Assembly (NCBI GenBank): GCA_023133655.1
Contig: JAGLWB010000316.1
Location: 1 to 32,626, forward strand
Length of the DNA stretch: 32,626 bases
Reading direction: 5' to 3'
DNA from: Bacteroidales bacterium
Lineage (GTDB): Bacteria > Bacteroidota > Bacteroidia > Bacteroidales > JAGONC01
Both the position numbers and the translations under genes were made by a program. Under the pieces are notes generated by a model. The model had not been told where the DNA came from and did not search any database. It was given only the letters and a program-made list of their open reading frames with translations. This document shows positions 17,789 to 31,077 of this stretch, in pieces (position 1 is the stretch's first letter; every line of letters starts with the position of its first letter).

Positions 17789-17827
17789 GGAAGACGGGAG
17801 ACGGGAAACAGGAAACGGGAAGACAGG
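17789..17827 (+). repeat. GGGAGAC-type heptamer array
   Basis: About five 7-bp purine-rich units (GGAAGAC, GGGAGAC, GGGAAAC, AGGAAAC), starting 2 bp after the stop of the first PAS gene. A GC palindrome follows at 17843. No inverted partner array and no four-helix gene is present. Confidence 0.8.
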
Positions 17828-17842
17828 ATTTAATTTGACTAG

Positions 17843-17862
17843 CCCCGGACTTCAGTCCGGGG
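17843..17862. repeat. GC palindrome copy 1
   Basis: CCCCGGACTTCAGTCCGGGG, 8-bp stem plus a T-A pair and a tight loop. It could act as a REP-like element or an RNA hairpin in the message. The TTG-started extension of the next gene into it (from 17835) would translate this repeat and is rejected. Confidence 0.8.
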
Positions 17863-19661: not shown

Positions 19662-19663
19662 AA

Positions 19664-19746
19664 GGAAGACGGGAGACGGGAAACGGGAGACAGGAAGACA
19701 GGAGACGGGAGACAGGAGACAGGAGACAGGAAACAGGAAAAACGGG
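19664..19746 (+). repeat. GGGAGAC-type heptamer array, long copy
   Basis: Eleven to twelve units (GGGAGAC, AGGAGAC, GGGAAAC, one 8-bp unit), starting 2 bp after the stop codon of the four-PAS gene and followed by a GC palindrome at 19769. The longest of the three arrays of this type. Confidence 0.85.
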
Positions 19747-19768
19747 ATTTAATTTGGATGATGAATAG

Positions 19769-19788
19769 CCCCGGACTTCAGTCCGGGG
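19769..19788. repeat. GC palindrome copy 2
   Basis: Identical to CCCCGGACTTCAGTCCGGGG at 17843. A separate 12-bp palindrome GCCCAGCTGGGC lies 28 bp further (19817-19828). Confidence 0.8.
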
Positions 19789-19864: not shown

Positions 19865-20692
19865 TTGAAAGAAATAAAAAATATTCTGAACCTTTTGAAA
19901 GAGCAAAGAGGTTTCGACTTTACCGAATACCGTACATCAATGCTTGAACGCAGGGTTCAAAAAAGAGTTTACAGCACCAATTGCAGAAATTTTGATAATT
20001 ATCTCGAATACCTGGATCATCATCCCGGTGAATTAGATAATCTGATTGATGTTTTCACAATTAATGTCAGTCGTTTTTATAGAAACTCCTTGTCTTTTGA
20101 ATACATCAGCAAAATAATTATTCCTGAGCTGTTTTTAGCCAAAGCAAAAGAAAATGATAACAACCTTAGGATTTGGTCAGCCGGTTGTTCGTTTGGTGAA
20201 GAACCCTATTCAATGGCAATTATTTTCAATGAATTCCTTAGAAAAGAAGAAACCTCCATTAAACTGAATATTTTTGCTACCGACATCGATAAAAAAGCAT
20301 TAAAACGGGCTTCTGAAGGGTGTTATGGTTTTAATAGTATTGAAAAAATAAAATTTGGTATCTTTAAGAAATTTTTCACCAAAGAAGGAGAACAATTTAA
20401 AATAGATCCTGAAATAAAAAAAATGGTACAGTTTTCTTTCTACGATCTGCTCGACGAAAAACATATTGTTCCTCCCGAAAGTATTTTCGGAAGTTTCGAT
20501 ATTATTCTTTGCCGAAATGTTCTGATTTATTTTAATCTGGACTATCAGAAAATAATATTTAATAAGCTTTACAGATCTTTGAATAAAAATGGCTACCTGA
20601 TTTTAGGTGAAGCAGAAGTACCTGTTGAAGGTTTTAAGCATAAATTCAGGAGGGAGAATAAATGTTGTAAAATATATAGGAAGAGTAGTTGA
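19865..20692 (+). CDS. cheR: CheR-type protein-glutamate O-methyltransferase
   Basis: A SAM-dependent methyltransferase that in chemotaxis methylates glutamates on receptors. The 275-aa length is that of a complete CheR. The N-terminal helical domain (about 1-75, GFDFTEYRTSMLERRVQKR) is followed by the catalytic domain with SAG-CSFGEEPYS (SAM site), FATDIDKKALKRA and DIILCRNVLIYF. The best start is TTG at 19865: an in-frame stop lies at 19832, and the next ATG would remove part of the conserved N-terminal domain. No cheB, cheA, cheW or receptor gene is in the window. The next gene is a hybrid kinase with a Gln/Glu-rich coil that may be its target. This fits CheR proteins associated with hybrid kinases rather than motility. 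Confidence 0.88.
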   Translation: MKEIKNILNLLKEQRGFDFTEYRTSMLERRVQKRVYSTNCRNFDNYLEYLDHHPGELDNLIDVFTINVSRFYRNSLSFEYISKIIIPELFLAKAKENDNNLRIWSAGCSFGEEPYSMAIIFNEFLRKEETSIKLNIFATDIDKKALKRASEGCYGFNSIEKIKFGIFKKFFTKEGEQFKIDPEIKKMVQFSFYDLLDEKHIVPPESIFGSFDIILCRNVLIYFNLDYQKIIFNKLYRSLNKNGYLILGEAEVPVEGFKHKFRRENKCCKIYRKSS

Positions 20693-20775
20693 GTGAGTTA
20701 AGTAAGGTGAGTAGGTGAATTAAAGCCCACCATCCACTAAACCACTCAACTACTTAACCACTCACCCACTTAACT
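20684..20775. repeat. Solo octamer array hairpin without a gene
   Basis: A purine-rich block of octamer units (GTAGTTGA, GTGAGTTA, AGTAAGGT, GAGTAGGT) is followed, after a short spacer, by the pyrimidine-rich inverted block (AACCACTC, AACTACTT, ACCCACTT). The two could fold into one long imperfect hairpin. The left block begins in the last codons of cheR (stop 20690-20692). Units match those flanking the four-helix gene at 24232. Confidence 0.8.
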
Positions 20776-20788
20776 GAAATCTAAAAGC

Positions 20789-23700
20789 ATGAAACTATCA
20801 TCATTCAAAAGCATCCGAACCCGTTTAACATACTGGTTCCTTCTATTATCACTCATTCCCTTATTAATTATACTAGTAATTACTTATTTTCAACAGGTTA
20901 ATGTTATTGAGACCAGGACATTTGACAAACTTACAGCAATACGTGATTTGAAAGTTGAACAACTGGAAAACTGGCTAACCGAAAGGACGGGTGATCTATT
21001 AACAGCATCCACTGATAATGAATTAATAATTCTCGAAGAAATAATTTTTAAGGAGCACAAAGATCAGAGCAATCTTATAGAATATAAGAACATTCGCCGC
21101 ATCCTGAACCGGTATCTGAGCAACTATGACGCTTATAGTGAGATATTTATAATCAATCCCCGAACAGGTATTGTTGAAATATCTACCAATCAAAATTATG
21201 AAGGAATGGATAAATCCGATTATACTTACTTCACCGAACCTCTGCAGACCGGCGGGCTATTTATTAAAGATGTCTATTATTCAAAGACATTATTAAGAAA
21301 TGCGATGACTTTTTCTATTCCCATATTCTGTTCAGCGCATGAGCCACCACATATTATCGGCATTATGGTGGCACGTGTTGACTTGAAAAACTCTCTTTAT
21401 GCTTTGCTGATGGATAGGGTCGGTCTTGGTGAAACCGGTGAAACTCTGATTGTAAGCAAAGATATTGTGGCTTTGAATGAACTCCGCTGGTATGATAATG
21501 CACCGTTAAACCTTCAGATATCTGACGAACCTGCTGTTAATGCTGCATATGGGGAAACAGGGATAATGGTTACTTCCGATTATAGAGGTAAAGATATTCT
21601 GGCTGCTTATACTTACATTCCTCAAACAGGCTGGGGCTTTATCTGCAAACAGGATATGTACGAATTGAATGCCCCCATTCGCGAAATGATAATGTATGTT
21701 ATAATTGTTTTTATTTTTACAGCAATCGTAATTTCCATAATTGCATTTGGTATAAGCAAATCTATTTCAAAACCGATTGTTGAAATGGATAGTGTCGCTC
21801 AAAAAATAAGGGCTGGCGACTTTTCAGTTAGAAATACGATTACTTCGAAGGATGAATTAGGGTCATTAGCCCTTGCATTCAATAATATGGCAGAGACGAC
21901 TGAGTCCAGAATAAAAATCCAACAAGGAATTTCTAATATTTCCGAAACAATGATCGGACAGTCGTCCATGCAGGAATTTGGTTCGGAATTACTTAAGCAA
22001 TTGATGGAAATTACAGGAGCCAACATGAGCACATTTTATATTCTGAATGAAGCGACATCGGAATATGAACATTTCGCATCTGTAGGTGCCAATGAAAAAT
22101 TGCTAAAACCTTTTAATGCTGAAAACCCTGAAGGAGAATTTGGCAACGCATTTTCGAAGAAAAGCATTTACTATCTCCAGGAGATTCCGGAAGACACAAT
22201 TTTCAAATATAAAACCACTGCCGGCGATGCAATACCTAAGGAAATAATTACTATTCCTGTATTGGTTGAGAGCACAGTAGTGGCCCTTATTTCACTTGTA
22301 AATATTCAAAAGTTTAGCAAAGAATGCTATGATATTCTAAAGCTATCATGGCTGAGTATAAATTCGTCTTACTCGAGTTTACTGGGAGGTGAGAGAACCC
22401 GGATCCTTGCCGAACAGCTTTCCAAAACCAACCGGCAATTAGAAGCCCAAACCGAAGAATTACAGGATCAGGCAGAAGAGTTACAAGACCAGGCTGAAGA
22501 ATTGCAACTTACTTCAGAAGAGCTACAAGAACAGAATCTTGAACTCGAAGCTCAAAGAATTCAGGTGGAAGAAGCAAACCGCTTGAAAAGCGAATTCCTG
22601 TCCAATATGAGCCACGAATTGCGAACGCCACTTAATTCCATTATGGCGCTCTCACGTGTATTAATTACCCAGACTAAAAACAAACTCAGTGATGAAGAAA
22701 ATAATTATCTCGAAATCGTTGAACGAAATGGTAAACGTCTATTATCTCTTGTTAATGACATTCTTGACCTGTCGAAAATTGAGGCAGGAAAAGTGGAAAT
22801 CTTGCCGGAATTTATTTCAATAGGTGCTCTTCTGCAGCTTATTAAAGAGAACATGCAATCCTTTATAGAGGAGAAAGGTTTGACCTTTACTTTAAGTGTT
22901 CCTGATAACTTGCCAAAAGTAGAAACTGACGAATCGAGGCTGCATCAGGTTTTAACTAATATCATTGGTAATGCGGTAAAATTTACCGAGAAAGGAAGTG
23001 TTGATATCGCAGTTAAACACGATTCACAAAATGTTCTCATTGAAGTGAATGACACCGGCGTTGGAATTTCAAAAGAAGTACTTCCACATATTTTTGATGA
23101 ATTTAGACAAGCTGATGGTACTTCGTCCCGCCAATATGAAGGTACCGGCCTCGGGCTTGCCATTGCCAATAAAATGACAAATATCCTTGGTGGTAATATT
23201 AAGGTTAAAAGTAAATTAGGAAAGGGCTCAGTTTTCATTATTACTATCCCGATTAAGTGGCATGAAGAGATACTTCTTGCCCAAGATGTAAACTTGAAAA
23301 CTACCACTCAATCTGAAAAAAGTACAATTTTAGTAGTTGATGATGAGCAAAAAACAGTTAAAGATATTTCCAATACCTGTATCCTGATCGTGGAAGATAA
23401 CCAGGATGCCATAATTCAGGTTAAGGCAGTTTTGGAAAATGAAGGATATAAAATTGATGTGGCCGGCAGCGGACAGGAAGCCCTGGATTACGTTCAGCAT
23501 ACTATTCCCGATGGGATTATCCTGGACCTGATGATGCCCGATATTGATGGTTTTGAAGTTCTGGAAAAAATTAGAAATATTGAAAAAACCAAAAAGATCC
23601 CTGTTTTAGTGCTAACTGCAAAAGACCTGTCCAAAGAAGAGCTTAAAAAATTAAGTTCCAACAATATACAACAAATAGTCCAAAAAGGCGATGTAGATAT

Positions 23701-24193
23701 TGAGGGCTTGCTTTATAAAGTAAAATTATTGCTTGGAAATGAACCAAAATCCAAGACAAAAGACAAAAGGAAAAAGCTGGAGCGGAACGGAAGTCCGCTT
23801 CAGGCGGATGAAGATGTTACCAATGCTGATTTGCCAAATGTTCTGATTGTTGAAGATAATCCGGATAATATGATGACGATTAAAGCAATATTAAAAGGGA
23901 AATATAATATTGCTGAAGCAGTTGATGGAGCACAAGGCTTAAGAATGGCACTATTTCAAATTCCGGATATTATTCTTCTCGACATGGCTTTACCAAAAAT
24001 GGCTGGAGAGGAAATTGTCCGAATTCTTAAAATTAATAATGAAACTAAGAATATTCCTATAGTAGCAGTGACAGCCCGGACCATGAAAGGCGACAAAGAA
24101 AAACTCCTGGAAGTTGGTTGTGATGGATATATTCCAAAACCAATTGACCCGGAGACGTTGTTAGCGGAAATTGGTAATTTGTTGAGTGGTTAA
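20789..24193 (+). CDS. Membrane hybrid histidine kinase, Cache-HAMP-GAF-HK-REC-REC
   Basis: A 1134-aa sensor. TM1 about 15-34, periplasmic double-Cache domain (about 38-295, SDYTYFTEPLQTGG), TM2 about 299-321, HAMP (322-375), GAF (about 395-530), a coil of EELQ-type heptads (about 551-595), HisKA with H609 (MSHELRTP), HATPase (N-box GNAVKFTE, G1 DTGVGI, G2 GTGLGLAIAN), receiver 1 with D913 (ILDLMMP) and receiver 2 with D1065 (LLDMALP). A stray ILVVDDEQ segment at about 846 resembles the start of a lost extra receiver. The linker between receivers (about 988-1010) is coded by a heptamer array and palindrome. It likely senses an extracellular ligand and relays phosphate to the nearby receivers. 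It follows cheR. Its stop lies in an octamer array. Confidence 0.93.
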   Translation: MKLSSFKSIRTRLTYWFLLLSLIPLLIILVITYFQQVNVIETRTFDKLTAIRDLKVEQLENWLTERTGDLLTASTDNELIILEEIIFKEHKDQSNLIEYKNIRRILNRYLSNYDAYSEIFIINPRTGIVEISTNQNYEGMDKSDYTYFTEPLQTGGLFIKDVYYSKTLLRNAMTFSIPIFCSAHEPPHIIGIMVARVDLKNSLYALLMDRVGLGETGETLIVSKDIVALNELRWYDNAPLNLQISDEPAVNAAYGETGIMVTSDYRGKDILAAYTYIPQTGWGFICKQDMYELNAPIREMIMYVIIVFIFTAIVISIIAFGISKSISKPIVEMDSVAQKIRAGDFSVRNTITSKDELGSLALAFNNMAETTESRIKIQQGISNISETMIGQSSMQEFGSELLKQLMEITGANMSTFYILNEATSEYEHFASVGANEKLLKPFNAENPEGEFGNAFSKKSIYYLQEIPEDTIFKYKTTAGDAIPKEIITIPVLVESTVVALISLVNIQKFSKECYDILKLSWLSINSSYSSLLGGERTRILAEQLSKTNRQLEAQTEELQDQAEELQDQAEELQLTSEELQEQNLELEAQRIQVEEANRLKSEFLSNMSHELRTPLNSIMALSRVLITQTKNKLSDEENNYLEIVERNGKRLLSLVNDILDLSKIEAGKVEILPEFISIGALLQLIKENMQSFIEEKGLTFTLSVPDNLPKVETDESRLHQVLTNIIGNAVKFTEKGSVDIAVKHDSQNVLIEVNDTGVGISKEVLPHIFDEFRQADGTSSRQYEGTGLGLAIANKMTNILGGNIKVKSKLGKGSVFIITIPIKWHEEILLAQDVNLKTTTQSEKSTILVVDDEQKTVKDISNTCILIVEDNQDAIIQVKAVLENEGYKIDVAGSGQEALDYVQHTIPDGIILDLMMPDIDGFEVLEKIRNIEKTKKIPVLVLTAKDLSKEELKKLSSNNIQQIVQKGDVDIEGLLYKVKLLLGNEPKSKTKDKRKKLERNGSPLQADEDVTNADLPNVLIVEDNPDNMMTIKAILKGKYNIAEAVDGAQGLRMALFQIPDIILLDMALPKMAGEEIVRILKINNETKNIPIVAVTARTMKGDKEKLLEVGCDGYIPKPIDPETLLAEIGNLLSG
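23751..23810 (+). repeat. Heptamer array plus palindrome inside the kinase coding region
   Basis: Four heptamers CCAAGAC, AAAAGAC, AAAAGGA, AAAAGCT (23751-23778) are followed by a GC-rich palindromic stretch with GCGGA/TCCGC and AGTCCGCTTCAGGCGGA. The order array-then-palindrome is that of the intergenic copies, but the stretch stays in frame and codes the charged linker between the two receivers. Confidence 0.6.
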
Positions 24194-24214
24194 GTGGTTG
24201 AGTAGGTGAGTTGG
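24181..24214. repeat. Octamer array, left flank of four-helix unit 4
   Basis: Four 8-bp units GTTGAGTG, GTTAAGTG, GTTGAGTA, GGTGAGTT. The array codes the last residues and the TAA stop of the hybrid kinase. Inverted relative to the pyrimidine-rich part of the array at 24611-24684. Confidence 0.85.
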
Positions 24215-24231
24215 GAAATTTTAGAAAAATA

Positions 24232-24621
24232 ATGAGTGAAAATAAATCAACATTTGAGACGTTGGAAGTCTGGATTAAATCCAGAGAAATGCGGAACAGG
24301 ATATCGGAACTTTCAAAGGATTTTTCTTCTGAAGAGAAGTACAGACTCACTGATCAGATGATCCGTGCCTCACGTTCCGTAACTGCAAATATTGCAGAAG
24401 GTTATGGCAGGTATCATTATCAGGAGAACATACAATTCTGCAGAATAGCAAGAGGATCATTATTTGAGTTAGTTGATCATTTGACAGCTGCACTTGATGA
24501 AAATTATATTGATGAAGAGATTTATAGAAATATAAAATCAGACATATTGGAAATCATAAGATTACTAAATGGATATATAAAATATCTTTCAACAAGGAAG
24601 AGAGATAAAAGAGTTGAGTAA
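24232..24621 (+). CDS. Four-helix-bundle protein, S23/IVS-Avd family (copy 4)
   Basis: A 129-aa protein with the family motifs FETLEVWIKSREM, QMIRASRSVTANIAEGYG and NIQFCRIARGSLFELVDHL. I start at the ATG at 24232; a TTG at 24211 would lie in the octamer array and add seven residues not seen in relatives. The last three codons (Arg, Val, Glu) and TAA come from the right-hand array. The gene sits between a hybrid kinase and a receiver-PAS protein and has no evident link to signalling, so it looks like an insertion into the sensory cluster. Function unknown; relatives are basic helical oligomers. Confidence 0.87.
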   Translation: MSENKSTFETLEVWIKSREMRNRISELSKDFSSEEKYRLTDQMIRASRSVTANIAEGYGRYHYQENIQFCRIARGSLFELVDHLTAALDENYIDEEIYRNIKSDILEIIRLLNGYIKYLSTRKRDKRVE

Positions 24622-24684
24622 GTTGAGTTGATGAGTAGTTCCCACTTACCTACTTACCTACTCACCTACTCAACTACTCAACTT
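24611..24684. repeat. Octamer array, right flank of four-helix unit 4
   Basis: A purine-rich part (GTTGAGTA, AGTTGAGT, TGATGAGT) is followed by a pyrimidine-rich inverted part (ACTTACCT twice, ACTCACCT, ACTCAACT twice). It can pair with itself or with the array at 24181. It contains the stop of the four-helix gene. Two further heptamers CCTGAAA follow at 24689-24702, just before the next gene. Confidence 0.85.
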
Positions 24685-24710
24685 TAAACCTGAAACCTGA
24701 AACAAACATC

Positions 24711-26077: not shown

Positions 26078-26123
26078 GGAAGACGGGAGACGGGAGACGG
26101 GAAACAGGAAACGGGAAGACAGG
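26078..26123 (+). repeat. GGGAGAC-type heptamer array, third copy
   Basis: About six units (GGAAGAC, GGGAGAC twice, GGGAAAC, AGGAAAC, GGGAAGAC), starting 2 bp after the stop of the receiver-PAS gene. The stretch from the end of that gene through the array and palindrome is almost the same as at 17700-17900. Confidence 0.85.
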
Positions 26124-26138
26124 ATTTAATTTGACTAG

Positions 26139-26158
26139 CCCCGGACTTCAGTCCGGGG
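26139..26158. repeat. GC palindrome copy 3
   Basis: Same 20-bp palindrome CCCCGGACTTCAGTCCGGGG as at 17843, here followed by a second copy 26 bp later. Confidence 0.8.
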
Positions 26159-30843: not shown

Positions 30844-30884
30844 GGTTTGAAAAGATTGCGGAAGCGGTGATCACTATTAATTAA

Positions 30885-30912
30885 GTTTCAGGTTTCAGGT
30901 TTCAGGTTTCAG
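30885..30912 (+). repeat. GTTTCAG heptamer array
   Basis: Four perfect 7-bp units GTTTCAG plus a partial one. The complementary unit (CCTGAAA, twice) occurs at 24689-24702. It lies in the predicted leader of the sigma-54 activator gene. Confidence 0.9.
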
Positions 30913-31008
30913 GTTAATGTGTTTACAGTTATTATGATGCATTTTGTTCTTGAAGTTTGTTTATAAATTACAGTATAAAGCTGAAATTTTAAAACCATTA
31001 TTTTCAAC

Positions 31009-31029
31009 AACCCGTAACCCGTAACCCGC
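31009..31029 (+). repeat. AACCCGT heptamer array
   Basis: Three 7-bp units AACCCGT, AACCCGT, AACCCGC, followed by AACTTGGGTT, which can pair back with the CCC part. About 50 bp before the start codon at 31078. Confidence 0.8.
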
Positions 31030-31077
31030 AACTTGGGTTAATTGCCAATAGCTAAAGCTAATAGCAAAAAGGAGCAT

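Follow-up and report, generated by a model that had tools for sequence, protein, structure and literature searches.

In the window (the whole stretch of 32,626 nucleotides analyzed here), two inverted arms of degenerate repeats of about 8 bp face each other between cheR and the gene for a hybrid histidine kinase, raising the question of whether this solo hairpin is what remains of a gene-bearing element, a copy that arrived as a hairpin, or a site for a gene to enter. Our analysis suggests that it is very probably a four-helix (23S rRNA IVP/S23-family) cassette like that of unit 4, downstream in the window, reduced by the loss of its gene to two arms that are now joined. The features of both sites are listed in Table 1.

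Table 1. Features of the solo hairpin site and of the unit 4 cassette, with positions in the window
Feature	Position	Strand	Remarks
CheR methyltransferase gene (cheR), upstream neighbor of the solo hairpin	19865–20692	+	PF01739
Solo hairpin, left arm	20684–20723	+	TGAGT-type repeats, degenerate; cheR stop codon (20690–20692) lies within
Solo hairpin, right arm	20734–20775	+	YYACTYAM octamers, lag-8 identity 0.74
Hybrid histidine kinase gene, downstream neighbor of the solo hairpin	20789–24193	+	dCache/HAMP/HisKA/HATPase/receiver
Unit 4, left arm	24181–24217	+	octamer array; kinase stop codon (24191–24193) falls inside
Unit 4, four-helix gene	24229–24621	+	TIGR02436, 114.8 bits; PF05635 (23S_rRNA_IVP), E 3.6e-35
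Unit 4, right flank	24612–24685	+	short direct arm, then inverted octamer array; foldable as a hairpin

The arms of the solo hairpin pair with an MFE of −30.0 kcal/mol and a z score of −5.5 as RNA, and with a z score of −4.0 as DNA, and none of 200 shuffles reached either value. Markov-3 shuffles amounting to 2 Mb (100 × 20 kb) contained no hairpin array scoring as high, and the stem is far beyond chance. Rfam yielded sub-threshold matches only. The preliminary description had spoken of octamer blocks, a term that suits the right arm better, since the left arm, which contains small indels, is degenerate, its best lag being 9 (0.58) and its lag-8 identity only 0.41. It had also seen no gene within the hairpin and the same vocabulary as in unit 4, and both observations hold: the window copy contains neither an ORF nor a detectable gene remnant, and the best match of its vocabulary to the unit 4 arms scores 23, compared with 14 for the reversed control.

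This vocabulary is found at five places in the whole genome (G000), namely, the solo site, unit 4, C154:1, C154:2841, and C102:6186, and the window octamers form two hairpins and a few one-armed arrays there, these copy numbers being lower bounds since the draft assembly seems to break at arrays and genes. Several of the contigs C102, C154, C49, C38, and C123 end in or near such arrays or four-helix genes. Elsewhere in the window (30880–31035), GTTTCAG and AACCCGT heptamer arrays, partly complementary and about 85 bp apart, occur without a four-helix gene.

The unit 4 gene belongs by profile match to the four-helix 23S rRNA IVP/S23 family (PF05635/TIGR02436), and the predicted structure of its protein matches 2gsc and 2rld, followed more remotely by DGR Avd. 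Its right flank does fold as a hairpin, as had been noticed before. The accompanying suggestion that the gene moved in beside a ready-made hairpin is not borne out, as the arm-gene-hairpin layout recurs at the gene relic of L242, described below, and at the cassettes L072 and L009; the 3′ hairpin therefore looks like a part of some cassettes, and that of unit 4 likely belongs to its own.

The search with the unit 4 protein found a sister genome (L242; JAUVIX010000186.1, labeled Chlorobiota CSMAG_439) that spans the same cheR-kinase-unit 4 segment, with 94.2% and 96.0% nucleotide identity on the two sides of the hairpin site. The orthologous site has the same arms, AGTAGTTGAG... and ...ACTCAACTACTTAAC, and what lies between them is the 3′ end of a four-helix gene, 44 codons long and 59% identical to the unit 4 C-terminus (tblastn 4e-14), where LVDHLTAALDENYIDEE...LLNGYIKYLSTRK in unit 4 aligns with IIDHLYVAPDEGYIDKS...LLNGYIKYLKECK in the remnant. 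The first ~80 codons are missing, and 3′ of the relic there is a small hairpin, as in unit 4. Among the 54 four-helix proteins of our family set, that of unit 4 alone matches the remnant at an E value of ≤0.01. The 44-codon remnant implies that a separate four-helix gene, paralogous to that of unit 4, formerly occupied the cheR-kinase site, and the position of this remnant between the same arms makes the window hairpin best read as a relic of gene loss rather than as a target or precursor. Of the origins initially offered for the hairpin, the deletion derivative thus gains direct support, and the empty target site and the precursor are not needed here. The simplest history would lead from a full cassette through the 3′ remnant of L242 to the bare hairpin of the window, an order that we infer from one relative. 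As for outgroup synteny, the kinase gene has no orthologue in the four family relatives, with distant matches alone elsewhere.

Under this history, a cassette whose short tandem arrays form a palindrome, with the gene as its loop, would once have lain between cheR and the kinase gene, the gene-bearing state being the earlier one. Repeated arms and a long stem would make it easy to lose the loop through slippage or recombination between repeats, leaving the stem behind. The arms may serve a mobile or selfish element for recognition or protection, and the four-helix protein probably recognizes them.

The spot after paralogous PAS-protein genes carries GGAGACAGG heptamers in the window (17789–17821, 19663–19740, and 26081–26124), TGAGT octamers on C154 (L029:2841) and C102 (L031:6184), and GATATCCGAATAACG repeats in L242 (260 and 6380), and arrays seem to replace one another there. 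A palindrome, CCCCGGACTTCAGTCCGGGG, recurs beside these arrays in the window (17833–17862, 19761–19788, and 26129–26158), with an Rfam match to Acido-Lenti-1 below threshold.

The preliminary description had proposed checking whether four-helix genes accompany such hairpins more often than expected, and the outcome is strongly positive. S23/IVP four-helix genes are present in 114 of 148 sampled Bacteroidota genomes, and the family set comprises five genomes with 54 such genes; the genomes in close comparison are drafts or MAGs. Arrays lie on both sides of 41 of the 54 genes, and, at score thresholds chosen in the present analysis, matching inverted tandem arrays flank 30 of them, compared with 3 of 380 ORFs taken as controls in the same stretches. 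Inverted matches score 20.6 on average for the two arms of one element and 6.4 for arms taken from different elements (permutation p<1e-4), and arm similarity is predicted by protein similarity (Mantel rho 0.16, p<0.001). A phylum-wide sample gave 11 passing genes out of 30 versus 2% of mismatched pairs. For 78 relatives of the unit 4 protein from many phyla, the flank similarity to the unit 4 arms rises with protein identity (rho 0.46), being 10.4 at 50–60% identity and 26.5 above 75%, with 7.3 for distal control stretches, and the same flanks score 10.7 and 23.5, respectively, against the solo hairpin itself; the relatives are not phylogenetically independent, so that p-values overstate the number of events. 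GTTGAGT-type octamers are found at four-helix loci of Ignavibacteria, Nitrospinota, Cloacimonadota, and desulfobacterial MAGs. Mis-binning of contigs may explain some of these cross-phylum loci but is unlikely to explain all of them. As judged by sequence comparison, the vocabulary of an array follows the clade of its protein, also between phyla.

Hairpins lacking a gene are found at other sites as well. We counted 20 solo hairpins in 374 kb of G001 to G003, where they outnumber the gene-bearing ones, and 6 in 221 kb of the window's own genome, the stretches in both cases being partly chosen around four-helix genes. Outside the family, 6 hairpin arrays in 800 kb compare with 2 in shuffles, which are low counts. 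The vocabulary of solo hairpins matches the four-helix arms of the family better than reversed controls do (p 1.6e-4). In a Bacteroidales MAG, a solo octamer hairpin (L246:1120–1250) and a four-helix gene of the same clade are separated by about 2.8 kb. Besides the TGAGT octamers, other array vocabularies are GATTAACC and GGTTGCAGG. The ends of the GATTAACC hairpins are fixed (GATATC...GATATC), and their flanks are unrelated; after our collapsing of the hits, these hairpins occupy ~30 sites in G002, ~20 in G001, 4 in G003, 3 in G004, and 0 in G000; the four-helix genes of this clade are present in few copies per genome despite the many hairpins. Since this vocabulary disperses, a hairpin need not have held a gene, and solo hairpins may spread as well. 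Two processes thus appear to be at work, namely, in-place gene loss, which is supported at the window site, and hairpin dispersal, which is supported for GATTAACC.

Gene-bearing and gene-less states also alternate at sites of a related genus. G003 has a solo hairpin of the GATTAACC vocabulary where G002 carries a four-helix cassette in arms of the same vocabulary, with near-identical outer ends, and G001 has another four-helix gene with different arms at this site, the two genes sharing 59% amino acid identity, compared with 92 to 98% for true orthologues. At a further site, G001 has a gene with decamer arrays, G003 has arrays and a remnant motif without a gene, and G002 has about two repeat copies. 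The three species are nearly equidistant (star-like), so that these sites are not polarized. Different four-helix cassettes occupy one intergenic site in two species (G001:C73:64885 [L205] and L190:17235–17830), which marks an insertion hot spot. The motif CAGGGTCACAAAA is located upstream of several four-helix genes (L001, L004, L008, and L013), and the gene-less remnant of G003 (L189, ~9090) retains a similar motif.

The solo hairpin could instead have come to the window site as a hairpin, a REPIN/MITE-like nonautonomous copy mobilized in trans and never gene bearing here. The many GATTAACC sites of G002, with few gene copies of the clade, and the excess of solo hairpins in G001 to G003 are in line with such an arrival, but we consider it unlikely, as L242 has a gene remnant at the orthologous site and the window octamers do not form a large dispersed family. 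A hairpin serving as target or precursor, with the four-helix gene inserting later, would agree with the related-genus site where the cassettes of G001 and G002 differ and G003 has a plain hairpin. However, a pre-existing target would not explain vocabularies that are clade specific even across phyla, and the L242 gene is decayed rather than fresh, leaving this origin very improbable.

Slightly less probable still is a slippage-prone intergenic repeat or terminator-like hairpin after cheR that has nothing to do with four-helix genes: the association tests and the L242 remnant argue against it, the hairpin has no U tract, and 400 kb from four genomes lacking the four-helix gene family contained no hairpin arrays. 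In its favor, short tandem arrays are frequent in G000 (37 strong ones in 221 kb), their copy number varies in register, and arrays in the window and in family stretches lie close to stop codons, with 29 starting at or within 15 nt of one versus 13.6 expected from random placement in the same gap. Retro-copying by a genome-encoded reverse transcriptase is not supported, no such domain being found in G000 or G001, two of the five family genomes. As to mobilization by Y1 transposases, their genes are present in these genomes, with matching arrays absent at the five inspected. The loss of the gene from a unit 4-type cassette has points against it, too. Its polarity comes from one sister genome, the window copy itself keeps no remnant, and a gene might also, in a less simple course, have entered a hairpin and been truncated afterward.

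We know of no function for the S23/IVP four-helix genes, nor had a partner been known for the 7-8-mer arrays that lie between genes in Bacteroidetes and Cyanobacteria. Array and protein pair in a clade-specific manner across phyla, which ties the two together and makes binding directly testable, and the solo hairpin illustrates one fate of the cassette. We tentatively propose that each S23/IVP protein might recognize, in DNA or RNA form, the array hairpin belonging to its clade and be responsible for spreading or protecting it, which is rather less than an even prospect. If true, array hairpins with or without a gene would be a widespread class of bacterial mobile elements, whose recognition sequence would be a degenerate 7-8-mer array coevolving with the four-helix protein, and both the rRNA intervening sequences (IVSs) and many intergenic heptamer repeats would be accounted for.

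The closest known counterpart of the cassettes is the 23S rRNA IVS, which is characterized by its excision from the transcript by RNase III; ORF-less IVSs exist. The solo hairpin is located between cheR and a histidine kinase gene rather than in an rRNA gene, so the window cassette is not classed as an IVS, though it would work like one. In the Coxiella burnetii 23S rRNA IVS, the termini are complementary, the loop contains an S23p ORF, and tandem heptamers next to this ORF vary in copy number between strains, one of which has a large deletion in the ORF (PMC4990558). The cassettes share with it the long palindromic stem, the S23/IVP four-helix ORF in the loop, the variable tandem repeats, and the decay of the ORF (PMC4990558): unit 4 encodes a PF05635 protein, L242 retains a remnant, the window copy is ORF-less, and the termini form a stem in the computed folding. 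They differ in sitting between protein genes, in a stem that is itself built of tandem 7-8-mers, and in being present in many copies per genome, with different vocabularies.

In population behavior, REPINs are nearest: they are short palindromes at dispersed sites, matched to a gene that has the same sequence on its flanks, and their hairpins can outnumber the genes (PMC3116915). Dispersed multicopy inverted pairs are seen for the GATTAACC family, and the window octamer family has two hairpins. Whereas the RAYT partner is a Y1 HUH transposase, the product of the repeat-flanked gene here is a four-helix protein of the IVP family, for which no catalytic site is known. Of the features of MITEs, the arms are inverted, and no target-site duplication was seen at the GATTAACC sites. 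DGR Avd resembles the four-helix proteins in fold (TM about 0.7), with a weak profile match of one window homologue, but the sequence identity is about 8%, and neither G000 nor G001 has an RVT_1 domain. As far as the available sections of the two papers describe them, the intergenic TAACTGA repeats of Bacteroidetes (PMC4679880) and the P6b stems of Nostoc trnL, built from complementary heptamers with an NNTGAGT motif among them (PMC4476775), are likewise made of short degenerate tandem units, whereas the units here are mostly paired as inverted arms around a four-helix gene or relic, and those sections contain no link to four-helix genes. The open-access literature yielded no paper joining the arrays with four-helix genes, which cannot prove that none exists. 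By analogy with these systems, the cassettes may be read as intergenic counterparts of the 23S rRNA intervening sequences, with solo hairpins that resemble REPINs.
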